From: Mucilaginibacter sp.
Lineage (GTDB): Bacteria; Bacteroidota; Bacteroidia; Sphingobacteriales; Sphingobacteriaceae
Direction of reading: 5' to 3'
Length of the DNA: 38,952 nt
NCBI GenBank assembly: GCA_028288085.1
Contig: JAQBOK010000047.1
Location: 1 to 38,952, forward strand
Made by a program: the position numbers and the translations under genes. This document shows, one piece after another, positions 1,134-19,374 of this stretch (position 1 is its first letter; each line of letters starts with the position of its first letter). The notes under the pieces were generated by a model, which had not been told where the DNA came from, did no database searches, and saw nothing but the letters and a program-made list of their open reading frames with translations.

Positions 1134-2471
1134 GTGCAGTTTAACCCAACTTATGGAAAGCGTTTTTTATTAAAATTGCTATTATTATTCTTTTTTATCA
1201 GCATAGGGGGACTTGCCCACAGCCAGGTAATTGTTCCGGTTGATTCTCTTAAAGCAGATTCTTTACGTGCTAAAACTTTAAAAGATAAAAAGCCGGTTGA
1301 TAACATAAATAAGCAGTATGATTTTGGCGATTTAACCCGGAATATTCTCCATCCCAAAAAAAAGGCCGATACATTGCATAAAGGGTCGGGTATTACTATT
1401 GTACCCAATATTGCTGCTAACCCAACCATTGGCGCCCAACTGGGAATTAAGGCTGTGGCAGGCAGAAAATTAGGCAATGATCCTAATACCCTCCTATCGG
1501 TTGCTGCAACATCGGCTTCTATTACCAGCAAGGGGATAATTTATTTTTATGTTAATCATAATATATTTACTCCCGGTAACAAGTGGAATTTTCAGGGTAA
1601 TCTGGTAGTCGCAAAAACGGTAACGCCTGACTATGGTTTAGGAATAGGCCGGCAAGTTGACGGAGGAAGCGATGCAGACAAGGTGCTGGCGGATCCCACG
1701 CACAAAGTTTATCCTATCCATTCTTTTTATTTTAACGGCAGGGAGAAGGTTTACAAGGAAGTGGAGAAAAACCTTTTTGTCGGGGCCGGGATGTCATTTG
1801 AGGTAAGGCGGGACATTACAAACAAGGATACATTAAACAATGCAACGCCCTCAAGTGTTTATAACAACCAGCATGGATTTCCCCAGGATCATTACTCGGC
1901 AAACGGCTTTCTTTTTAATGTAGAGTATATTACACGTGACAATCCAAACCGTGCCTACAAGGGTATTTATTTTGATGCAGGCTTCCGTGTTAATCAAACC
2001 TGGATAGGAAGCACAAAAAACTCCATGCAATTTACTACCGATTTCAGGAAATATTTTAGCTTATCAGATGTAAGCCCCGAAACTGTGCTTGCTCTTTGGA
2101 ACTGGGGTTCGTACCTGCTCAGCGGTTCAATACCCTACCTTGAATTACCCGGTACTGCCAGAGATGTATCTTTTAGAAGCGGCAGGGGTTATACCTCCCA
2201 ATATTTTAAGGGCACTCAATTTAACGATTCAGAAGCCGAATTCCGCTTCCCTATATTAGCAAACAAATTTATCAGCGGTGTTACTTTCGTTAGTATGCAA
2301 ACCGCCAATGATGAACAGGGCACCAGACTATTCCAGGTATTTCAGCCGGGCTACGGTGCAGGTTTGCGGGTATTGTTTAACAAAGCTACACGCACCAACC
2401 TGGCGCTGGATTACGCTTTTGGCAGATACGGCAACAAAGGATTCTTCCTGAATTTAAATGAATCATTTTAA
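1134..2471 (+). CDS. BamA/TamA (Omp85)-like outer membrane beta-barrel protein
   Basis: Signal peptide (LLLLFFFISIGGLAHSQ), barrel-like alternation, C-term GYGAGLRVLFNKATRTNLALDYAFGRYGNKGFFLNLNESF. Confidence 0.7.
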   Translation: MQFNPTYGKRFLLKLLLLFFFISIGGLAHSQVIVPVDSLKADSLRAKTLKDKKPVDNINKQYDFGDLTRNILHPKKKADTLHKGSGITIVPNIAANPTIGAQLGIKAVAGRKLGNDPNTLLSVAATSASITSKGIIYFYVNHNIFTPGNKWNFQGNLVVAKTVTPDYGLGIGRQVDGGSDADKVLADPTHKVYPIHSFYFNGREKVYKEVEKNLFVGAGMSFEVRRDITNKDTLNNATPSSVYNNQHGFPQDHYSANGFLFNVEYITRDNPNRAYKGIYFDAGFRVNQTWIGSTKNSMQFTTDFRKYFSLSDVSPETVLALWNWGSYLLSGSIPYLELPGTARDVSFRSGRGYTSQYFKGTQFNDSEAEFRFPILANKFISGVTFVSMQTANDEQGTRLFQVFQPGYGAGLRVLFNKATRTNLALDYAFGRYGNKGFFLNLNESF

Positions 2472-2726
2472 GAAGTAAATATAAAATATGCAGCTGATAA
2501 GTACTATACTGCACCACTAATATAGAGAAGGCCGAAACCAAAAAGCCTCATATCTTTGAACCTAAGGCTTTCATTTATATGATACTTACCTTACTGTGCA
2601 GTTTTCGAACCAATTCATACATGATTTGAAGAAATTGGCCAAGTCTATTAGATTAATTAGTGTTCAATACTTATTGGTTTGCTGAAGAATTAATTAACCA
2701 CCAATTCAGTATCCGAAATTACTATA

Positions 2727-2744
2727 AAACAGACTTGTCTGTTT
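2727..2744. promoter_or_regulatory. Putative TetR operator, site 1 (AAACAGAC-TT-GTCTGTTT)
   Basis: Perfect 8-bp palindrome immediately upstream of tetR; same core recurs at 3387-3404 and 4354-4371. Confidence 0.8.
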
Positions 2745-2768
2745 GCAAAAATTATCTTATTTTTGAAC

Positions 2769-3317
2769 ATGCGTAATGAAAGGAAAAATTCGATCCGGCG
2801 AAATATAATTGATACGGCGTCACGTTTATTTTACGAACAAGGTTATGGCAATACTGGTATCAACCAGATCATTGAAGAATCCGGTGTGGTTAAATCTTCC
2901 CTATATACTGCTTTCAGAACAAAGGAAGAGATATTAATGGCCTACTTGGAAACGGCCGGCGCAGCCACCGATGAAGCGCTTAAAACCGCAGCTAACAAAC
3001 ATACCAAAGCCAAGGACAAAGTGTTGGGTGTGTTTGATTTCCTCATCGAACTTGTACAGCAAAAAGATTATTACGGTTGTAACTTTTTAAATATCATTTC
3101 TGAAGTACCAAAAGATGCAGCCGTAGTGAGGCGGCAAATCAAAAAGCAAAAGGATGGTGTGCGCAGGCTTTTTGCTGAGATTCTAACGCCAATTCAAAAA
3201 GAGGATCTGGCAGACGAAATTTATGTGTTGTTTGAAGGAGCGTTGATTGGCAATAAGGTACATGACGACACCTGGCCAGTGACAGCCGCGCGCGAAGTTG
3301 TCAATAAATTATTGTAA
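2769..3317 (+). CDS. TetR/AcrR family transcriptional regulator
   Basis: N-terminal HTH: RRNIIDTASRLFYEQGYGNTGINQIIEESGVVKSSLYTAFRTKEEILMAYL; ORF track starts at TTG 2763, ATG at 2769 preferred. Confidence 0.93.
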   Translation: MRNERKNSIRRNIIDTASRLFYEQGYGNTGINQIIEESGVVKSSLYTAFRTKEEILMAYLETAGAATDEALKTAANKHTKAKDKVLGVFDFLIELVQQKDYYGCNFLNIISEVPKDAAVVRRQIKKQKDGVRRLFAEILTPIQKEDLADEIYVLFEGALIGNKVHDDTWPVTAAREVVNKLL

Positions 3318-3377
3318 ATACTCACTATATCTGATTAACACAATGCTTCAGCTAATAAAGCGATGAGAATATTTTAC

Positions 3378-3415
3378 AATTAAATTAAAACAGACTGGTC
3401 TGTTTTAATTTAATT
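3378..3415. promoter_or_regulatory. Putative TetR operator, site 2 (38-bp extended palindrome)
   Basis: AATTAAATTAAAACAGAC-TG-GTCTGTTTTAATTTAATT: perfect 18-bp arms, 2-bp spacer; followed by TACCTTTG (3420-3427), resembling the Bacteroidetes -7 element. Confidence 0.8.
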
Positions 3416-3477
3416 TATATACCTTTGAAATATAAAAAAATTCAACCTACAGATAACAACATATTAACAAACATAAA

Positions 3478-4335
3478 ATGAAAACGCAAATTATTAATTA
3501 TGGAAAAGTTAATGTAGATGGCATTAACATCTTTTACAGGGAGGCCGGTGATAAATCCAAACAACAGATCATCTTGTTTAACGGCGTGCCAAATGCTTCG
3601 AGTGCATTTCAGGAATTAATGAATGACCTGAAAGATGATTATTATTTAGTAGCGCCGGATTTCCCTGGATTTGGCAACAGCGATATCCCCGACAAAAAGG
3701 ACTATGCGTACACTTTCGAAAATATTTCTCTGACGATGGAGCGGTTCATGGAAAAAATGGAACTGAAACAGCCAAATGTGTATGCGCTTGGTTACGGCGG
3801 CCCCATCACTTTCCGGATTGCAATCCGCAGGCCAGGCATTTTCAATAATTACATCTTACAAAACTCCAATGCTTATGAAGAAGGATTAGGCCCGGCGATG
3901 CAGGACGCAGGTCCTTTCCTTGAAAATCGCAACGAGGAAACCGTGAAGTTGGTAAAACCCCTGCTGACATTAGATGGCATCAAGCTTTTCTTTCTGAATG
4001 GAGCAAAAGATCCTGGCAAAATTAATCCTGACCACTTTATCAATGCGCTGCATTATCTTAACCGCCCTGGTCAGGAAGAGATACAACTGGACTTGCTGTA
4101 CAATTATGCAACTAATATCGCCGAATATCCCACATGGCAAAAATGGCTTCAAGAAACACAGCCGCGTTTGTTATTGGTTTGGGGTAAAAACGATGTGTTT
4201 TTTCCGGTTGCGGCAGCCGAAGCGATCAAAAAGGATGTTCCTTCAGCAAAACTCCATGTTTATAATACCAGCCATTTAGCATTGGAAGAACACCATGCCG
4301 ACATCGCCAAAAACATCAAATCCTTTTTAGGGTAA
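3478..4335 (+). CDS. alpha/beta hydrolase-fold protein with degenerate nucleophile motif
   Basis: DYYLVAPDFPGFGNSD, conserved late Asp (WGKNDVFF) and His (NTSHLALEEH); nucleophile elbow reads YALGYGGP. Confidence 0.88.
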   Translation: MKTQIINYGKVNVDGINIFYREAGDKSKQQIILFNGVPNASSAFQELMNDLKDDYYLVAPDFPGFGNSDIPDKKDYAYTFENISLTMERFMEKMELKQPNVYALGYGGPITFRIAIRRPGIFNNYILQNSNAYEEGLGPAMQDAGPFLENRNEETVKLVKPLLTLDGIKLFFLNGAKDPGKINPDHFINALHYLNRPGQEEIQLDLLYNYATNIAEYPTWQKWLQETQPRLLLVWGKNDVFFPVAAAEAIKKDVPSAKLHVYNTSHLALEEHHADIAKNIKSFLG

Positions 4336-4353
4336 AAAAATTTAAATTAATAA

Positions 4354-4371
4354 AAACAGAGTGGTCTGTTT
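4354..4371. promoter_or_regulatory. Putative TetR operator, site 3 (AAACAGAG-TG-GTCTGTTT)
   Basis: One mismatch from the symmetric core, directly upstream of the second hydrolase. Confidence 0.75.
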
Positions 4372-4398
4372 TATTGTAAATAAACTAAATACACAATC

Positions 4399-5268
4399 AT
4401 GAAAACTTCAAAAATAAATTATCGCAATGCTAAGGTAAATGGCTTGAATATCTTTTACCGCGAAGCAGGCCCGAAAGATGCACCGCTGGTATTATTGCTG
4501 CATGGTTATCCAACTTCATCACATATGTTCAGAAACCTGATCCCGATATTGAGTGAGCAATACCATGTAATCGCACCTGACCTTCCCGGTTTTGGTTTTT
4601 CCGACAAACCGGATCACCAGGATTTTTCTTATACTTTTGACAACTTGACCAAACATATCCAGGGCTTTATTGATCAGCTGGAACTGAAAAGGTTTGCGAT
4701 CTATGTATTTGATTATGGTGCACCTGTGGGTTACCGTATCGCGGTTGCCAACCCTGAAAAAATAACCGGTATTATCACGCAAAATGGTAATGCTTACCTG
4801 GAAGGTTTAAGCGAAAACTGGAACCCTATTCAGAAATATTGGGCCGAGCCAACGGAGGAAAACCGTACTGCCTTAAAAATGATGGTGGAAGAGGGCACTA
4901 CAAAATGGCAATATTTTACCGGGGTAGCCGATGAGACTTTGGTAGCGCCAGAATCCTATACACTGGATCAGCATTTCCTCGATCAGCCGGGCAATGTAGA
5001 AATACAGCTTGATCTTTTTAAAGACTATGCAAGCAATGTGGCACTGTATCCTGTATTCCAGCAATATTTCCGCGATAGTCAGCCTGCCCTGTTGGCTGCC
5101 TGGGGAGATAAGGACCCGTTCTTTCTTCCACCTGGCGCCGAAGCCTTTAAACGTGACATCCCTGGCGCTACAGTGAAATTTTTTGACACTGGCCATTTTG
5201 CCCTGGAAACCCATGTAAATGAGATCGGTGAGGAAATTCTTAACTTTTTTGAGAAACTGCCAAAGTAA
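4399..5268 (+). CDS. alpha/beta hydrolase (haloalkane dehalogenase/epoxide hydrolase-like)
   Basis: LLHGYPTSSHMFRNLIPILSEQYHVIAPDLPGFGFSDKPD; YVFDYGAPVGYRIA nucleophile Asp; WGDKDPFF; DTGHFALETH. Confidence 0.92.
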   Translation: MKTSKINYRNAKVNGLNIFYREAGPKDAPLVLLLHGYPTSSHMFRNLIPILSEQYHVIAPDLPGFGFSDKPDHQDFSYTFDNLTKHIQGFIDQLELKRFAIYVFDYGAPVGYRIAVANPEKITGIITQNGNAYLEGLSENWNPIQKYWAEPTEENRTALKMMVEEGTTKWQYFTGVADETLVAPESYTLDQHFLDQPGNVEIQLDLFKDYASNVALYPVFQQYFRDSQPALLAAWGDKDPFFLPPGAEAFKRDIPGATVKFFDTGHFALETHVNEIGEEILNFFEKLPK

Positions 5269-7681: not shown

Positions 7682-7857
7682 GATATTACAAAATATTGAA
7701 TAGCAGATGCTGGAACGGACCTGTAAACGGTTATTTATCTTATTCTAAAATACTCATAAAAATTTGCATATCAATTAGATAAGCTTTACATTTAAACTAA
7801 AATAGTACAAGTTATGTATGTTTGTGTTTAGTTAGGTATAAACTTAATTTTTGTAAC

Positions 7858-8061
7858 ATGAAAGCATTTGACAAAAACACCTCAATGGGGGCAGCATTCG
7901 ACAAAAACACCTCGATGGGGGCAGCATTTGACAAAAACACCTCAATGGGCATAGTAGCCGCAGTAAGTGAATTGGGTGTAGAGCCAGGAAAATCAAACAT
8001 TGCAGGTGAATCTGCTGAGGAATCGGCATCTAATGAAGCAGGTGAGACGGCAGATAACTAA
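7858..8061 (+). CDS. small repeat peptide, 67 aa (three AFDKNTSMGA-type repeats plus acidic tail)
   Basis: MK-AFDKNTSMGA-AFDKNTSMGA-AFDKNTSMGI-VAAVSELGVEPGKSNIAGESAEESASNEAGETADN; ATG 7858 preferred over ORF-track GTG 7822. Confidence 0.7.
   Translation: MKAFDKNTSMGAAFDKNTSMGAAFDKNTSMGIVAAVSELGVEPGKSNIAGESAEESASNEAGETADN
7864..7953 (+). repeat. Three tandem 30-bp repeats (GCATTTGACAAAAACACCTCAATGGGGGCA)
   Basis: Units 7864-7893, 7894-7923, 7924-7953; unit 2 has two synonymous changes, unit 3 differs only at its end. Confidence 0.97.
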
Positions 8062-8155
8062 TATTACCGGCATCCCGAGAATTTGAAGCAAGAGACTTAA
8101 CCATACCTTTTAAAGATACTCTGCCACGCAGACATCTTATATTATCTAATACCGT

Positions 8156-9547
8156 ATGCAAAACCACATGGTAAAAAGAATGGTTTGTGCTTTCATGATC
8201 GTGTGCATGTCAATTGCCGGGTATGCCCAAAAAAATAATATCTCTTCATTAAAGACCCAGATTGCAAATCATGCCAGTGATACAGCCGGCGTTGAATTAT
8301 TAAGGAAGCTAAGCAGGCAAATACAACCTACCAAACCAGACAGCGCGTTAATTTATGCGCAGCAGGGCCTTGATCTGGCAAGAAAACTATCCTACAGTAA
8401 AGGTGAAGCCGATTGTATGGACCGGCTTGGCGTGGTTTTATGGAAAAATGGAAAGTATGACCGCGCCCTTGCATTTTTACTCGGTTCGTTGAAACTGAGA
8501 GAGATTATTAAAGACAGGCTTGGGGTGCTAATGAGTTTAAACGATATAGGCATCGTTTATTCTGATCAACTGGATAACGTTGAGGCCCTGCGCTATCATT
8601 TTAAAGCAAAAGCCGCGGCCGAAGCATTACATGATAACAGGAGACTAAGCATTGTACTTGCAAATATTGGCAATTGCTACATAAAACTTAATAAAATAGA
8701 CTCCGCTTTAAGCTTCGAAATGCAGGCCTATACCATTCAACATGCTTTAAATGATCTGTCTACCTTATCAAATACCCTTTCTATTTTAGGTGATATAAAC
8801 TACAAAATGGGACACAATGCTTTAGCGCTTGATTATTACCGGCTAAGTGTAACCTATGCAATTAAAAATAACGATCAAAGCGGGCTTGCTGACACCTATA
8901 ACAGCACGGCGCAACTGTATAAACAAACAGGCGTAACCGATTCAAGCATATATTATGCTGAACATGCCTTAAATGCTGCAAAGGCGGCTATGTATCCCGA
9001 GGGTATTTACCACGCCAGCAGCTTACTTACTGATATTTACCGGGGGAAAAACGAACATCTTGAATTAGCCTATTTAAAAACTGCCCTTACCGCAAAGGAC
9101 AGCATGTTTAATGCCGAAAAAATTAAACAGGTGCAAACATTAAGCTTTAACGAGGCCGCCAGGCAGGTAGAAATAGCTGAGGAAAAACATCATGAGGAAG
9201 AGGCAAGGATCATCAACCTGCAAATGATAGGTATAGTAATATTTATACCGTTCTTCTTCCTGGTACTTTTACTTTTAAGCAAAAGCCATACGCACCCCAA
9301 AGTAATAGAGTTTATGGGGGTGATCTCGTTATTGCTGGTTTTTGAATTTATCACCCTATTCATTCATCCGTTCGTTCAGCGCATCAGCAATCATTTGCCC
9401 GTGCTTGAATTGGTAATATTAGTTGTGCTTGCCGCAATATTGGTACCTATGCATCATAAGCTTACACATTGGATGCGTGAAAAATTGGTTCATGAAGTGC
9501 GGCATCGTCCTAAGAAAACCATTGCAGAGATCGAAAAAAAAGAATAA
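8156..9547 (+). CDS. TPR protein with signal peptide and C-terminal transmembrane helices
   Basis: TPR-like repeats (YDRALAFLLGSLKLREIIKDRLGVLMSLNDIGIVY..., NALALDYYRLSVTYAIKNNDQSGLADTYNSTAQLYKQTG); hydrophobic IGIVIFIPFFFLVLLLLS and further helices. Confidence 0.85.
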   Translation: MQNHMVKRMVCAFMIVCMSIAGYAQKNNISSLKTQIANHASDTAGVELLRKLSRQIQPTKPDSALIYAQQGLDLARKLSYSKGEADCMDRLGVVLWKNGKYDRALAFLLGSLKLREIIKDRLGVLMSLNDIGIVYSDQLDNVEALRYHFKAKAAAEALHDNRRLSIVLANIGNCYIKLNKIDSALSFEMQAYTIQHALNDLSTLSNTLSILGDINYKMGHNALALDYYRLSVTYAIKNNDQSGLADTYNSTAQLYKQTGVTDSSIYYAEHALNAAKAAMYPEGIYHASSLLTDIYRGKNEHLELAYLKTALTAKDSMFNAEKIKQVQTLSFNEAARQVEIAEEKHHEEEARIINLQMIGIVIFIPFFFLVLLLLSKSHTHPKVIEFMGVISLLLVFEFITLFIHPFVQRISNHLPVLELVILVVLAAILVPMHHKLTHWMREKLVHEVRHRPKKTIAEIEKKE

Positions 9548-11241: not shown

Positions 11242-14200
11242 CTATAGTTTTACAAATTTGGTACTCCCAACAAGGGTTTTATCCTTACTATTAAGCACTT
11301 TAACAATATAAGTACCTGGCAACAAGTCGCTAACACTGGTTTGCCATGTCGGTTGCGGAGACGTAGCCTGCCTTATCACAAGTCCCAAATTATTTGTGAC
11401 CATAATACTATAAGTAATTGGGTTATTTACATCAGGAGTAATATTGAGGTAAATGATACTCTTTGCCGGGTTAGGGAACAGGTTTAAATTATTACTAACC
11501 AGGATAGTGCTTTGGTTTGTGTTTGTATATTCAACCGATACAATTTTTGAATAGGTAATAGTGTTATTGATATCTTCTTCCTTCAGTCGGTAATAGTTTT
11601 GGCCAATGACAGGATTTTTATCAAGCAGACTATAAGTGCCAAGGTTGCTTGATGCCACGCTACCTATTACATCGAAAGTTTTACCCCCATCTATACTTCT
11701 TTCAACAGTAAAGTTAGTATAGCTCTGTTCGTTTTCAGTAGTCCATATTGCTTGTGCCCCACCTGATACCTTTTTTGCGCTGAAACCTAATAAATGCAAG
11801 GCCATTGCAGGGTTTTGGCGTATCACTAATTGAAAACGCTTACCACCATAACTATTAGTATCTGTAGAAATATTGAAGGCATACGTTGCATTTTGACGCA
11901 TATCTAACGAATCCTTTTTGTAATTGTCCATCAGCCAAATCTCATAAAGTTGAGGGATAGCCTCTACTTCAGTCATATTTAATTTATAAATACCAGCATC
12001 ATGAGCTTTTACAAATAAGGGTATAATGGTTTGTTTTATCCCTGGCAAAGGAGTCCTGTTTATAGCCAGCTCCACATTGTCGCTGGAAAAACTGGCCAGG
12101 CTTACTTTGCCGTTCCCCGGTTTATAAGGGGCATCTTCATTAACAACAAATTGTGATTTGTCAGATGAGTTAAATCCGATATAAATATCATCTGTATTAA
12201 TAGTATCCATGGCCATTTGTAAACGCAAATGCTGGTCAATGTTGTCATTATTCAAACTCGCCATACTAGCCCCTGAAGACATTAGAAGATTAAGTCCGGT
12301 ATTTTGGTTTGTGGACTTAGCCGACTCATTGAATATAAGCTGCGGACTGGTGCTACTTGTGGCCAAAACAAAAAAGCCTTGCCCGCTTACTATAGTCCTT
12401 CTGCCATGGTTAGTGTAAGTACCTCCTTTTTGATACGTATCGTAATTATAGGTAACAGGGTTAAGTTCATAAATGGTATTGCCCACATTATTGGCATATA
12501 TCCCGCTTGTGTTTGTAGTGGTGTTATATTGCTCCCAGTCAATTGAACTGGCATAAGGGTTGCCCACTAAATTAAACCCACGTACGGCAAAGTTGGTTCC
12601 TGCTCCTGCACCGGTATAGCCTAAATTAGCAGAGCCTGGCGTATACCAGTCATGCACAATTACCTGGCCCTGGTTTAAAACGCCCGTGGCAGTCATAGTA
12701 ACAGTTACAGGAGTAGTATAAGTTGTTAGTGTTTCTGTTGCTAAAGGTGCTGCTGCCCTGTTTCCCCTGAAAAAGAAAAGGAAACCATTACCAACAGGGA
12801 TATTATAGGTGGTTCCTCCACCGTTCAGGAAATAATTATGAGCAGGCACATTATTTATTGTGCTTATGCCTAAAAAATTACCACTGATAAAGGTTACGTT
12901 AGATGGGGCCAGATCTTCCCGATATAAATAAATTGTTGGGTTGCCTGTTTTATCAAAACCACCGCCAGCGTTGCCTGTAAGATAGATGCTATTTTGCAAG
13001 TAATTTACGCTATAAACATTGTTCGGACTAACCAAATAAGCATAAACGGGTGATGATGCCAGGCGGTAGCTTCTGTAACCTGCACCGCCAGTTACATAGC
13101 GCTGCACATTTACATTACCAGAAATAACGGGCCCGGATGGTATAGCGGCAATAGAAGCAGAGCTTGTGGCATCTGAAATTAAGGTTAAGAACCCTCCCGT
13201 AGCCAATGTGTTGCAAGAGCAGTTTCCAAGCATGGTTAAAACCCCCGAGCTTGCCACATTGAACAGGCCGCTTGACATGGTTTTTGTACCCGTACCGCTA
13301 AAAGTAACGTTATAAAACGTAACTCCATTACCCGCTCCCCCGGCTAAACTTTGCGTGGCCCCATTAAAGTTTACTGTAGGGGTGCTTAAATCTGCATAGT
13401 TCGAGGCATCATTAGCCAAAGTATTTGTAAAGTCGCCCGCTATGTTTAAGTTGCCCGATAAAGGAGTTTTTATACCTGTACCTGAAAATGAAATATTCTG
13501 ATAGCTTACACCTGCAGGTAAACCGGTAATGGCGGCAGATGTATAAACTGTTTGCGCAGCTCCCGAATATTCTACTGTGGTGCCGCTATTGCTAAAGGTT
13601 ATTACGTTTGTTCCTGTAGCTGAAAGCCCCGACAAGGTGGTAGTGTTTGCAAGCTGCAAGGTTGCAGCAGTTGCCGGTACCACAGCAAAAGTGGATGTAC
13701 TGGTAGCAGTGTTGGTTGTTTGAACAATACCCGAAAGTAGCGCAGTACCCCCTGCAAGCTTAAATGTTGAATTGAACAGTATAGCACCTGAGTTAGAAGA
13801 TGTTAACGACATATTTCCGGATACATTTAAATTGGAAACGTATGAAGCCATAGTTTGTGTATATGAACTTGCCAAACTGGTGTTTGCAATAATACTAATA
13901 CTGCCCGCGTTTAGCGTACCAAAACCAGAAAGCGTACAGCTATATCCAAGTCCCGAATTTGCATCACTTTGGTAAGTTATGGCACCCAGCACATTTAGAG
14001 TGGTTCCGGTATTTACAATAACCCCCCCTGGCTGTCCGCCCTTATTGCCAAATGCTATTGAGCCTACGTTAATAGTACCTGAACCTGCCATAATATTTGG
14101 AAAATTGGTAAAGGTTCTGTTTACACCAATAATCGCCTGGTCGATATTTGTTGGCACAACACCGCTAAGCCAGTTGGAGGCAGTGTTCCAATCGGAGCTG

Positions 14201-17200
14201 GTAACACCTATCCAGTCATCTGAATCGTAGCAGGATAAAGTTACTGTAGTTGTGCCGCTGCCGGTAATATTATAAGCCGAAATAGTATAAGTAGTTGCAG
14301 GAAATACTGTAGTGGGTGTACCGGTAATCTGACCGGTTGTAGTGTTGAAACTTAATCCCGGTGGCAATGGGGCGCTAATATGGTAGCCGCCGAGAGCTGT
14401 AAATTCCTTAACCGTATTGTTGCTATAATCAGACACGTATAAATTACCGCTGGCATCAGCCACAAAACCTTCCACATCAGTAAATCCGGATAAAGTATTA
14501 AGTAAAACACCGGTTGAACTATAAACCTTGATCTGATTATTGTGAGAATCTGCAACAAAGACGTTTCCCGAAGGATCAATGGATATTGCAAGCGGGTCAT
14601 TATATCCACTGCCAAACACTCCCATGTACGCCCCTGCCGGGCTGTATTCCGTGACGTTATTCCCGGTACGGTTTAAAACAAAGATATCCCCGGCCACATT
14701 AACTGCCACACCATCAGAATAGTTCATCCCAGTGGTAGAAACAGTAAGTAAAGTGGTGCCTAAAGTGCTGTATTTTTTTACAGAATTGGTGCCTGTACCG
14801 GTATTATAGGTGGCTATGTACAGGTTATCTGATCCATCAATATCTATACCCAGCGGGTGACCTAATCCAGTTATTATGGTTGACTGGTAAACCCCGCTTG
14901 AATTTAATTTATATATAGCGCCTGATCCGGTATCCATTACATAACAATTACCTGCCGAATCAAAAACCAGTCCGCATGGGCTGTTAAATGAGATACCCGA
15001 ACCAAAAGTGCCTAAATAGGCGTGACTGGGGCTATACTTGCTGATTGTTCCGCTATTATAGTTGGCTACATAAATATTACCCGCAGCATCAATAGTCATT
15101 AAACTCGGCCCGCTTAATGATGCACTGGCAAGAGATGTTCCTGTTGCGCTGTAAGCATAACCAGTAACTGCGCCGCCGGTGTTTGTAGGCGATAAAGTGG
15201 GTATTGAAGCATTAATAGGGTAATTATTTGTGGAAGGAGTGTAGCTGATAATAGGAGCATGCGGACTCACCGTTATTATTAGGGAAGTACTGCTATTTCC
15301 GGAAGCATTAATTCCTTTAATGGTAAAGGTTGTTGTTGGGAATACCACAGTTGGTGTACCGGAAATTACACCGGTAGTTGTATTGAAAGATAAACCAGTG
15401 GGTAGCGTAGTATTTATTGTATAACTTGCCGCTACACCGCCTGTATTAACTGGCGCGAATGAAGCAATAGTGCCACCAACCGTATAAGTAACTGTTGACG
15501 GGGTATAACTGATAACAGGTGCATTATTATTAACTGATAAGGTTACCGTAGTGCTTCCGCTGCCATTTGGATTGGTTGCAGTAATGGTATAAGTTATTAC
15601 CCCGGATACACCGGTAGGAGTCCCTGAAATTACCCCCGTAGAAGTATTAAATGACAGGCCTGCAGGTAATGCCGTGCTTATAGAATAACTAACTGCAGCA
15701 CCACCCGTGTTAGTTGGCGTTAGTGGAGTAATGGCCGTACCAGCTGTATAAATATTAGTTGATGGGCTATAACTGATCGCGGGGGCTTGCGGGTTCACTG
15801 TTAAGGTTACCGTGGTACTACCGGTGCCTATAACATTTGTGGCAGTTATGGTATAGGTGGTTGCTGAGGACACAATGGTAGGTGTACCTGAAATTACTCC
15901 CGTAGCGGTATTAAATGATAAACCGGCGGGCAACGCAGCGCTTATTGTATAACTACTTGCTGCACCACCTGTATTAGCAGGAGTCAATGGGGTAATAGCT
16001 GCGCCCACAATATAAATATTTGTTGATGGCGTGTAGCTGATAACAGGCGGTGTTGGATTAACACATGATAATGTTACCGTAGTAGTACCCACCCCTCCGG
16101 AATTATCAGCAGAAATTGTGTAGGTTATTACTGAAGATACTCCAAGAGGGGTACCTGAAATAACACCCGTAGTATTGCTAAATGACAAGCCCGGAGGCAA
16201 TGAAGGCCCAATTATATAACTGATTGATGAGCCTCCCGTATTAACTGGGCTTAATGATGTAATAGTTGTACCAACCGTGTAAACATTGGTTGATGGCGTG
16301 TAACTGATAACAGGGGGCGCCGGGTTAACTGTTAAAATTACCGTAGTACTTCCACTGCCCCCTACATTGATGGCGGTTATAGTATAGGTGCTTGCCCCGG
16401 ATAATGCGGTTGGCGTGCCTGAAATCACCCCGGTAGCTGTATTAAATGACAAACCAGCAGGAAGCGCTGTGTTTATGGAATAACTGGCAGCTGCACCACC
16501 AGTATTAGTTGGAGTTAATGAAACGATAGCTGTATTAACAGTGTAAACATTGGTTGATGGCGTGTAAGTAATAACAGGGGGAAGCGGATTAACTGTAAGG
16601 TTTACCGTAGTGCTTCCGCTACCAGTTACATTGGTAGCTGTAATAGTGTAAACTGTAGCTGTTGATACTGCAGTAGGTGTACCCGAAATTACACCGGTTG
16701 ATGTATTAAATATCAAACCGGCCGGTAGCGCAGTGCTAATTGAATAACTGGTAGCCGCACCACCAGTGTTAGCTGGCGTTAATGAGGTGATAGTTGTACT
16801 AATTGAATAAATATTTGTAGATGGGGAATAAGCAATGACAGGTGCTGGCGGATTAACCGTTAAGGTTACTGTGGTACTTCCACTCCCTCCCGTGTTAGTA
16901 GCTGTAATAGTGTAGGTAGTTATCGCAGATAAAACTGTTGGCGTGCCTGAAATCACTCCGGTAGCAGTGTTAAACGACAAACCCACAGGCAGAGCAGTGC
17001 TTATTGAATAGCTGGCTGCCGCACCGCCTGTATTGACAGGTGTTAACGTGGCAATAGCCGTATTAATTACATATCCATTTGTTGATGGCGTATAACTGAT
17101 AATAGGCGCAGGAGGATTAACACATGACAAGGTTACTGTAGTATTGCCGCTGCCGCCTGCATTGCTGGCGGTTATGGTATATGTTGTTACCCCGGATAAA

Positions 17201-19374
17201 GCAGTTGGCGTGCCTGAAATTACGCCGGTAGCTGTATTAAATGACAAACCTGCCGGAAGCGCTGTGTTTATTGAATAGCTGGTTGGTGTACCACTTAATT
17301 TAGTAGGGCTTAATGATGTGATTGCACTACCTACCAGGTAAATATTAGTCGCTGGTGCATAAATAATTACCGGTGGAAGAGCATCAACTTCTAAATTCAC
17401 TGTGGTGCTTCCGTTGCCTCCAGTATTAGTGGCAGTAATTGTGTAAGTAGTTGCTCCTGATATTGATAAAGGCGTACCAGATATTACACCAGTTGAAGTA
17501 TTAAATGATAAACCGGCAGGCAACGCTGTACTTATTGAATAGCTTACCACCGCACCGCCGGTATTGGCTGGAGTTAATGCAGCTATACCAACAGTAAGTA
17601 CGTAAACATTGGTAGATGGTGTATAACTGATAACAGGTGGCAAAGGGTTTACAGTTAAAGTTACCGTAGTATTTGCGGTACCCCCTGCGTTTGTAGCTGT
17701 AATGGTGTATGTAGTTGCCGAAGATAGTACGGTTGGCGTACCAGAAATTACTCCCGTAGCGGTATTAAATGATAAACCGGCAGGCAACGCTGTACTTATT
17801 GAATAGCTTACCGCCGCCCCGCCTGAATTAGCAGGAGTTAAGGTAGTAATAGCCATATTAAGTATGTAAACATTTGTTGATGGCGTATAACTGATAATTG
17901 GCGCCGGAGGATTTACTGTTATGTTTATAGTAGTACTGGCAGTTACCCCACCGGCATAGGTCGCGGTAATGGTATAAGTATTTGCTGCAGATATTGCTGT
18001 TGGAGTTCCGGAAATATCGCCGGTTGAGGTGTTGATAGATAAACCTGCCGGAAGCGCAGGGCTCACCGCATATCCTGTAGGATTGCCTCCCACTTCTGTT
18101 GATGATAAGGTTGTAATTACCGCACCGGTATGGTAGGTAAATGGCGAACCTGTATAGCTGATAGACGGCGCTAATACTTGTACGTTTATGGTAGCAGTAG
18201 CTGTTACGCCACCGGCATAGGTAGCGGTAATAGTATAAGTTGTGGCTGACGATGTTGCTGTGGGAATTCCGGAAATATCACCAGTTGAGGGATTGATAGA
18301 TAAACCTGCCGGAAGTGCAGGACTTACTGCATAACCTGTAGGATTGCCTCCCACTTCTGTAGAAGATAATGTTGTAATTGCCGTACCAGAATAATAGGTA
18401 ATGAGCGATCCCGTATAACTAATAGTAGATGCTAAAACGTTTACATTTATCACAGTTGTGGCGGTTACGCCCAAGGGATAGTTTGCCGTTATGGTATAAT
18501 TTGTTGCTGCCGAGGTTACAGTAGCCGCTCCCGATATTACACCCGTTGTTGTACTGAAAGATAAACCTGCGGGAAGTGCTGTACCTATTGAATAACTGGT
18601 TGGGCTGCCGGCTACCGTAGGCGTTAACGGCGTTATTGTGCCACCTGTATAATAAGTAAAGGGCGAACCCGTATAGCTTATTGAAGCTACAGGCGCTGCA
18701 ACCACCAGGGCTAAACCAGCACTGGAATAAGGCCCTCCCCCTGCATTATTGTCTGTAATTTTTAGTGTAAAACCATGCGATCCTGCAGTCGTAGCATTTG
18801 TTGTTGTTACAGTTAATGTGATAATAGAGCCATTATTACCACTTGGTAAAAACGATGGTGTGGTTGTGGTGCTATTGGTAATAGTTTCTGTACCTGAAGT
18901 AAAATCCCATGTAACGCCCGTAGGTGTCCCACCAGCCCAGGTTAAAAGCAGGTTATCATTTGATGGGCCGGTCGTTCCTGACTCAGACAATGTGATCTTA
19001 TAAGTTATACTGGATGTAGCTACGCCAGCGGTGGCCGTTCCGGTTTGAGTACCATAAGTTACAGCAGTAACCCTTCTTTTGGCAGCAAAAGTGGCATTTA
19101 AGAATAAAAGATTAAAAGTGACAAATGCGATAGCAAACGCAACCCATTTTACAGGTAATTTTTTAAATGATTTTCTATCATGATTGTCGTTGCAGGAGGC
19201 TCTTATCTTACTTTGGGAGCAACTCCCGCTATTAATAGGTGATATTTCATTAACGCCATTTGAGCTGATACCCGCAAATAAAACAGACTTGTTTTTTAAC
19301 GAGAAAAAAAACCTCAAGCCAATTGATATTTTTAAAACAAGTGATGCAATAAAAAAGAGTAAACTTTTTTTCAT
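11242..19374 (-). CDS. Giant secreted protein, 2710 aa: He_PIG Ig-like repeats, NHL-type propeller, beta-rich region, T9SS type A sorting domain
   Basis: Recurrent ALPAGLSFNTATGVISGTPT...TYTITATN; NHL-like motifs; NVQRYVTGGAGYRSYRLASSPV; C-term LNLFPNPAKSIIYLNI...LPGTYIVKVLNSKDKTLVGSTKFVKL. Confidence 0.93.
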   Translation of the reverse strand: MKKSLLFFIASLVLKISIGLRFFFSLKNKSVLFAGISSNGVNEISPINSGSCSQSKIRASCNDNHDRKSFKKLPVKWVAFAIAFVTFNLLFLNATFAAKRRVTAVTYGTQTGTATAGVATSSITYKITLSESGTTGPSNDNLLLTWAGGTPTGVTWDFTSGTETITNSTTTTPSFLPSGNNGSIITLTVTTTNATTAGSHGFTLKITDNNAGGGPYSSAGLALVVAAPVASISYTGSPFTYYTGGTITPLTPTVAGSPTSYSIGTALPAGLSFSTTTGVISGAATVTSAATNYTITANYPLGVTATTVINVNVLASTISYTGSLITYYSGTAITTLSSTEVGGNPTGYAVSPALPAGLSINPSTGDISGIPTATSSATTYTITATYAGGVTATATINVQVLAPSISYTGSPFTYHTGAVITTLSSTEVGGNPTGYAVSPALPAGLSINTSTGDISGTPTAISAANTYTITATYAGGVTASTTINITVNPPAPIISYTPSTNVYILNMAITTLTPANSGGAAVSYSISTALPAGLSFNTATGVISGTPTVLSSATTYTITATNAGGTANTTVTLTVNPLPPVISYTPSTNVYVLTVGIAALTPANTGGAVVSYSISTALPAGLSFNTSTGVISGTPLSISGATTYTITATNTGGNGSTTVNLEVDALPPVIIYAPATNIYLVGSAITSLSPTKLSGTPTSYSINTALPAGLSFNTATGVISGTPTALSGVTTYTITASNAGGSGNTTVTLSCVNPPAPIISYTPSTNGYVINTAIATLTPVNTGGAAASYSISTALPVGLSFNTATGVISGTPTVLSAITTYTITATNTGGSGSTTVTLTVNPPAPVIAYSPSTNIYSISTTITSLTPANTGGAATSYSISTALPAGLIFNTSTGVISGTPTAVSTATVYTITATNVTGSGSTTVNLTVNPLPPVITYTPSTNVYTVNTAIVSLTPTNTGGAAASYSINTALPAGLSFNTATGVISGTPTALSGASTYTITAINVGGSGSTTVILTVNPAPPVISYTPSTNVYTVGTTITSLSPVNTGGSSISYIIGPSLPPGLSFSNTTGVISGTPLGVSSVITYTISADNSGGVGTTTVTLSCVNPTPPVISYTPSTNIYIVGAAITPLTPANTGGAASSYTISAALPAGLSFNTATGVISGTPTIVSSATTYTITATNVIGTGSTTVTLTVNPQAPAISYSPSTNIYTAGTAITPLTPTNTGGAAVSYSISTALPAGLSFNTSTGVISGTPTGVSGVITYTITATNPNGSGSTTVTLSVNNNAPVISYTPSTVTYTVGGTIASFAPVNTGGVAASYTINTTLPTGLSFNTTTGVISGTPTVVFPTTTFTIKGINASGNSSTSLIITVSPHAPIISYTPSTNNYPINASIPTLSPTNTGGAVTGYAYSATGTSLASASLSGPSLMTIDAAGNIYVANYNSGTISKYSPSHAYLGTFGSGISFNSPCGLVFDSAGNCYVMDTGSGAIYKLNSSGVYQSTIITGLGHPLGIDIDGSDNLYIATYNTGTGTNSVKKYSTLGTTLLTVSTTGMNYSDGVAVNVAGDIFVLNRTGNNVTEYSPAGAYMGVFGSGYNDPLAISIDPSGNVFVADSHNNQIKVYSSTGVLLNTLSGFTDVEGFVADASGNLYVSDYSNNTVKEFTALGGYHISAPLPPGLSFNTTTGQITGTPTTVFPATTYTISAYNITGSGTTTVTLSCYDSDDWIGVTSSDWNTASNWLSGVVPTNIDQAIIGVNRTFTNFPNIMAGSGTINVGSIAFGNKGGQPGGVIVNTGTTLNVLGAITYQSDANSGLGYSCTLSGFGTLNAGSISIIANTSLASSYTQTMASYVSNLNVSGNMSLTSSNSGAILFNSTFKLAGGTALLSGIVQTTNTATSTSTFAVVPATAATLQLANTTTLSGLSATGTNVITFSNSGTTVEYSGAAQTVYTSAAITGLPAGVSYQNISFSGTGIKTPLSGNLNIAGDFTNTLANDASNYADLSTPTVNFNGATQSLAGGAGNGVTFYNVTFSGTGTKTMSSGLFNVASSGVLTMLGNCSCNTLATGGFLTLISDATSSASIAAIPSGPVISGNVNVQRYVTGGAGYRSYRLASSPVYAYLVSPNNVYSVNYLQNSIYLTGNAGGGFDKTGNPTIYLYREDLAPSNVTFISGNFLGISTINNVPAHNYFLNGGGTTYNIPVGNGFLFFFRGNRAAAPLATETLTTYTTPVTVTMTATGVLNQGQVIVHDWYTPGSANLGYTGAGAGTNFAVRGFNLVGNPYASSIDWEQYNTTTNTSGIYANNVGNTIYELNPVTYNYDTYQKGGTYTNHGRRTIVSGQGFFVLATSSTSPQLIFNESAKSTNQNTGLNLLMSSGASMASLNNDNIDQHLRLQMAMDTINTDDIYIGFNSSDKSQFVVNEDAPYKPGNGKVSLASFSSDNVELAINRTPLPGIKQTIIPLFVKAHDAGIYKLNMTEVEAIPQLYEIWLMDNYKKDSLDMRQNATYAFNISTDTNSYGGKRFQLVIRQNPAMALHLLGFSAKKVSGGAQAIWTTENEQSYTNFTVERSIDGGKTFDVIGSVASSNLGTYSLLDKNPVIGQNYYRLKEEDINNTITYSKIVSVEYTNTNQSTILVSNNLNLFPNPAKSIIYLNITPDVNNPITYSIMVTNNLGLVIRQATSPQPTWQTSVSDLLPGTYIVKVLNSKDKTLVGSTKFVKL
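14225..18690 (-). repeat. Array of about 14 Ig-like repeats, roughly 260-267 bp each, interrupted by an NHL segment
   Basis: Counted from the translated ORF by the G-V-I-S-G-T-P core; boundaries approximate. Confidence 0.85.

Follow-up and report, generated by a model that had tools for sequence, protein, structure and literature searches.

Adjacent pairs of a propeptide gene and a TPR-receptor gene are a known mode of peptide communication in Bacillota, where the RRNPP (or RRNPPA) systems include Rap-Phr, PlcR-PapR, Rgg-SHP and AimR-AimP. The signature of these systems has been described, in a survey of complete Firmicutes genomes only, as a propeptide of 10-100 amino acids encoded directly beside a TPR receptor gene of 250-500 amino acids (PMC10075063). 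Tandem propeptides have also been described, such as Phr-105 and Phr-3T, which after export are cleaved by known proteases outside the cell and which target Rap proteins (PMC11343458). Here we analyse a window of 38,952 nucleotides of Mucilaginibacter sp. (contig JAQBOK010000047.1, positions 1 to 38,952), where a small repeat-bearing gene stands directly upstream of a gene for a TPR-membrane protein. The small gene and one clade of TPR genes are strictly paired, and such a pairing of motif peptide and TPR-membrane protein has not been described before in this Gram-negative group, the Bacteroidota.

The small gene (7858-8061, forward strand) encodes a peptide of 67 residues, MKAFDKNTSMGAAFDKNTSMGAAFDKNTSMGIVAAVSELGVEPGKSNIAGESAEESASNEAGETADN, in which three AFDKNTSMG[A/I] units are followed by an acidic tail. 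This composition, given in the preliminary description, is confirmed by translation and by Tandem Repeats Finder (7863-7949, period 30, 2.9 copies, 92% match), and the gene assignment is further supported by hydropathy and syntenic homologues. The same description had given the near-identical repeats as AFDKNTSMGA, which is correct for unit 1 (7864-7893, heptad DKNTSMG at 7870-7890) and unit 2 (7894-7923, heptad at 7900-7920), whereas unit 3 (7924-7953, heptad at 7930-7950) reads AFDKNTSMGI, its last codons being GGCATA in place of the GGGGCA of unit 1. The two changes that distinguish unit 2 from unit 1 (TTT/TTC and TCA/TCG) are indeed synonymous, and the reported lack of a signal peptide also holds, with no hydrophobic N-terminus found by hydropathy. 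A longer open reading frame with a TTG start (7822-8061) is possible; the ATG at 7858 is favoured because the start region of the relatives matches it (MSTSTKAFDKNTSMG...). A text search of the literature found no mention of the motif strings.

Searches with the window protein, or with a one-repeat version of it, returned nothing significant in 151 family or 150 genus genomes, and three weak matches (L041-L043) were rejected, being sited inside large unrelated proteins. Once synteny is used, this orphan by sequence search is a member of a conserved family. A further 28 genus genomes carry orthologues of the TPR gene (about 61-75% identity), the named relatives among their carriers being Mucilaginibacter species, and a motif ORF lies directly upstream in 30/30 assessable orthologues (61-75% identity; three genera, one family), a count that leaves out L021, whose locus starts 73 bp before the TPR gene at a contig end. 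These upstream ORFs encode 49-73 amino acids, are mostly acidic and contain [DN]K[NSG]T[SP][MI]G once, twice or three times. Two of the 30 loci are outside the genus: L101 (G001) was located via the motif pattern, and L116 (G397) via the TPR protein alone, the peptide MSTPKNEFDKNTSMGFASDEASFDKNTSMG... then being seen upstream, as predicted. Upstream of divergent TPR-membrane paralogues the motif occurs in none of 15 regions, and among shuffled upstream regions a motif ORF arose in 0/11,600. With the motif present ahead of all assessable TPR orthologues and in none of the shuffles, the motif ORF is not a product of chance. The preliminary description had proposed to look for relatives with conserved repeats; such homologues were found by synteny, with the motif conserved, and no loss of the repeat by frameshift was seen in them.

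The pairing also holds in the other direction, in that the pattern matches examined in the 150 genus genomes include no small gene-like motif ORF away from the TPR gene. Most of the pattern matches elsewhere (L046, L048, L052, L054, L062, L070, L089, L100 and L102-L112) were rejected as chance, since each fell inside a large protein, in a frame antisense to one, or in a short frame that had no TPR partner. A class-wide search beyond the family, in a sample of 395 genomes and at a strict cut-off, yielded no further case, an absence that is provisional given that sample and that cut-off; a search for the locus on plasmids found no match.

Within the peptide, selection is concentrated on the heptad. 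Across 48 copies conforming to the scoring pattern the tally is D (41), K (47), N (43), T (44), S/P (28/19), M/I (30/17) and G (45), and the heptad occurs in the nearly fixed forms DKNTSMG or DKNTPIG. In a close group of eight species, dN and dS for the motif are 0.009 and 0.442 (dN/dS about 0.02), as opposed to 0.093 and 0.598 (about 0.16) for the rest of the peptide. With low dN beside high dS, the DNA is free to change and the protein motif is held, so that the heptad is under strong purifying selection and the gene is selected at the protein level; the constraint on the peptide sequence suspected in the preliminary description is thus strongly supported. Among the homologues the motif is found near the N-terminus, in the middle or as the final residues, in one to three copies, and the remainder is mostly acidic, devoid of Cys, Trp and Tyr, and barely alignable, with no conserved leader or follower outside the motif. 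Across the family the heptad alone survives, at varying position and copy number, as is expected for a linear motif. It is usually present in one or two copies, so the three copies in the window are a lineage-specific tandem expansion of the motif, particular to this species. The SMG and PIG types are separated by a single change on the TPR tree, and covariation is therefore unable to separate co-evolution from shared descent. A comparison of motif type with TPR residues was set aside, as its top discriminating columns lie mostly outside the groove and are confounded by this single change. At two loci, L034 and L035 (G089 and G262), a single motif forms the last residues of the peptide (GKNTPIG before the stop codon) and the signal of the TPR partner is lipoprotein-like.

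The partner gene (8156-9547, forward strand, with an alternative start at 8168) encodes a protein of 463 amino acids for which a signal peptide, a TPR superhelix of about seven helical repeats, three membrane helices and a short basic tail are assigned by profile match (TPR_12, 3.1e-22), hydropathy, AlphaFold2 and Foldseek. The AlphaFold2 model, built with 35 sequences, has a pLDDT of 86 overall and above 90 across most of the TPR domain, and its closest solved folds in Foldseek are LGN/Pins, followed by RapI, Rap-pLS20, Rap-phi3T, RapF and kinesin light chain. The predicted superhelix of the partner is of the peptide-binding TPR type. By hydropathy, a signal peptide and three membrane segments are present across the orthologues, and the TPR proteins of the paired clade carry a signal peptide or a lipoprotein-like signal, for which reason the groove should be periplasmic; the TPR domain accordingly appears, by prediction, to face the periplasm. 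No output domain was recognised in the TPR protein. Within the paired clade, the tail averages 1.47 bits, the TPR domain 0.91 and the membrane part 0.61. The canonical groove positions in repeats 1-5, a range picked after seeing the data, are more conserved than positions elsewhere (0.49 vs 0.91 bits; permutation p 0.007), and over all repeats the difference is not significant (p 0.32). In the unpaired paralogues, on the other hand, groove positions are hypervariable (2.28 vs 1.74 bits, all repeats). This pattern fits one fixed ligand in the paired clade and is compatible with it, though it is no proof. At another locus, L082 (G116, 1692-5047), two tandem TPR-membrane paralogues flank a lipoprotein-like ORF of 99 amino acids in which an internal repeat, SALSDS...DSTFPKP, occurs twice, possibly another association of a small protein with TPR proteins.

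Upstream of the peptide gene there is a promoter-like element, TTTG-N20-TACATTTA with TATCA in the spacer (7763-7794, forward strand), which was identified by motif match in relatives and may act as a promoter. Similar elements are present in 17/27 relatives within 170 bp of the ATG, mostly at about -90, as compared with 3% of shuffles; the Bacteroidota promoter consensus is -33/-7. Elsewhere in this genome the extended form matches once, on the opposite strand to a large gene, and the element was rejected as a regulon marker in that no convincing second target emerged. In the genomes checked, the form TTTG..TATCAG..TATATTTA belongs almost exclusively to the peptide gene, a hint of dedicated regulation. 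The two genes are separated by 94 bp, within which a small hairpin, TCTGC-CAC-GCAGA (8120-8132, forward strand), accounts for 2 sites vs 0.2 expected, both being strands of the one hairpin; it is possibly a weak terminator or attenuator. Taken as a whole, the intergenic region of the window shows ordinary folding (z -0.27), and neither there nor in the repeat region was any significant RNA structure or Rfam family found.

When the four genomic contexts were compared over up to 10 kb on either side, the TPR gene was the only common neighbour, so that neither a modifying enzyme nor an exporter is consistently linked to the pair. Farther along the window, on the reverse strand (11242-19374), lies a gene for a secreted-type protein of 2710 amino acids with 14 putative Ig (He_PIG) stretches, an NHL stretch and a weak Por-type secretion tail, and this gene contains about ten 264-bp DNA repeats (15348-17937).

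The position of the motif gene just upstream of the TPR gene in every relative checked suggests that the two products are probably a peptide and its binding partner. In the reading that we prefer, and to which we give roughly an even chance, the two genes form a module, with the motif as ligand for the TPR groove. The small gene would encode an acidic carrier peptide, probably disordered, on which [DN]K[NSG]T[SP][MI]G is present one to three times and is offered to the concave groove of the TPR protein encoded next to it. That protein would have its anchor in the inner membrane and its superhelix beyond the cytoplasm. Most likely the peptide, either intact or after cleavage into motif fragments, would leave the cytoplasm by a non-Sec route, and its presence in the groove may alter the activity of the TPR-membrane protein, as a form of peptide sensing in which motif copy number would set dose or avidity. 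Binding, the placement of the TPR domain, the peptide's export and processing, and the output are all inferences; to pass from paired to bound takes a step of reasoning, and to pass from bound to secreted signal takes a weaker one, because the peptide has no signal sequence and the TPR domain is apparently periplasmic. A hydrophobic N-terminal segment, and with it a signal sequence, is absent in all peptide homologues, and a point against the groove as the site of the motif is that TPR folds bind many non-peptide partners too. Leaderless signalling peptides are known elsewhere, to judge from an account of a Streptococcus pyogenes system (PMC6565748), and on that account the lack of a signal sequence need not be fatal. 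The most far-reaching form of the proposal, in which Gram-negative Bacteroidota release a leaderless precursor bearing a heptapeptide in one to three copies and an outward-facing, membrane-anchored TPR protein is its dedicated receptor, having evolved independently of RRNPP, we regard as speculative and rather unlikely.

The missing signal sequence leads directly to another explanation, which is possible though doubtful, namely that the peptide is a cytoplasmic disordered adaptor whose motif docks on some other cytoplasmic protein or on the cytoplasmic tail and loop of the TPR protein, perhaps so as to regulate how the latter is inserted or turned over, with the groove binding something unrelated outside. 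Pairing and motif conservation fit this explanation equally well, and a mostly acidic peptide would face a basic C-terminal tail that is predicted to be cytoplasmic. That tail, however, is poorly conserved (1.47 bits) and the motif nearly invariant, which makes the tail a poor candidate for its binding site. An improbable alternative is that the ORF is a leader whose translation controls the downstream TPR gene by attenuation or coupling, with an inert peptide as its product. Its location 94 bp upstream of the TPR gene and behind a conserved promoter-like element would suit such a role, as would the small intergenic hairpins of some species, but the motif is selected at the amino-acid level with synonymous change left free, its shifts from N- to C-terminus would not be expected to be tolerated by a stalling leader, and the ordinary intergenic fold of the window and the absence of an Rfam family do not point that way.

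The preliminary description had proposed a multi-core precursor of a ribosomally synthesised modified peptide (RiPP) with a follower, and this we now consider highly improbable, even with maturation by an enzyme encoded elsewhere. Multi-core RiPP precursors exist, and a repeated short segment rich in D, K, N, T and S is suggestive of one. Nevertheless, the copies compared have no conserved modifying enzyme nearby, and the constant partner, overlooked in that description, is the adjacent TPR-membrane protein; with the TPR gene as the sole gene common to the four contexts, the absence of other conserved neighbours argues against a RiPP gene cluster. The order of repeats first and acidic follower last is likewise not conserved, because the single motif of other species is the extreme C-terminus (...RDKNTPIG or ...GGKNTPIG, each followed by the stop codon), and leader and follower are not conserved with a motif that may stand at either end. 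The window peptide contains neither Cys nor the aromatic residues Trp and Tyr, and has no match to curated families in Pfam, NCBIfam, PHROGs or PADLOC. Every supporting feature tested is missing from the RiPP reading.

Compared with known systems, the likeness of the window peptide to multi-core RiPP precursors is limited to a short segment that recurs within a small protein resembling a precursor, the conserved modifying enzyme, leader and follower all being absent. The best Foldseek match of the partner is the TPR domain of LGN/Pins (PDB 6hc2, 4a1s, 4jhr), whose groove accommodates short linear motifs, repeated GoLoco motifs among them; unlike the partner, it is eukaryotic and cytoplasmic, and the sequence of its ligand is unrelated. 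Phr-105 and Phr-3T resemble the window peptide in that multiple short pheromone-like segments, separated by far less conserved stretches, are encoded next to a TPR receptor gene (PMC11343458), although the sequences are unrelated, and export and cutting are known for Phr whereas the present module is known from its genes. The RRNPP pairs are the closest parallel: an ORF of 49-73 amino acids lies directly upstream at 30/30 loci, the window partner is within about 250-500 amino acids (463) and has TPRs (TPR_12, E 3.1e-22) in a fold close to RapI, RapF and other Raps by Foldseek, and a short conserved segment is carried in a variable peptide. In contrast to the intracellular receptors of Bacillota, the partner in these Gram-negative Bacteroidota has a signal peptide and membrane helices by hydropathy and lacks an HTH or phosphatase output; the RRNPP propeptides have a Sec signal or SHP-type export by PptAB, whereas no Sec signal is present here and the motif is not confined to the C-terminus. 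Adjacency, size and TPR content agree with RRNPP, and intracellular receptor and secretion signal do not, so the module is not to be filed there, even should it prove to operate in the same manner. It is analogous to the RRNPP pairs and not a member of them, and a strict pairing of peptide and membrane TPR protein in Mucilaginibacter and its relatives would extend their principle to Gram-negative Bacteroidota, with a defined seven-residue ligand ready for synthesis and testing.
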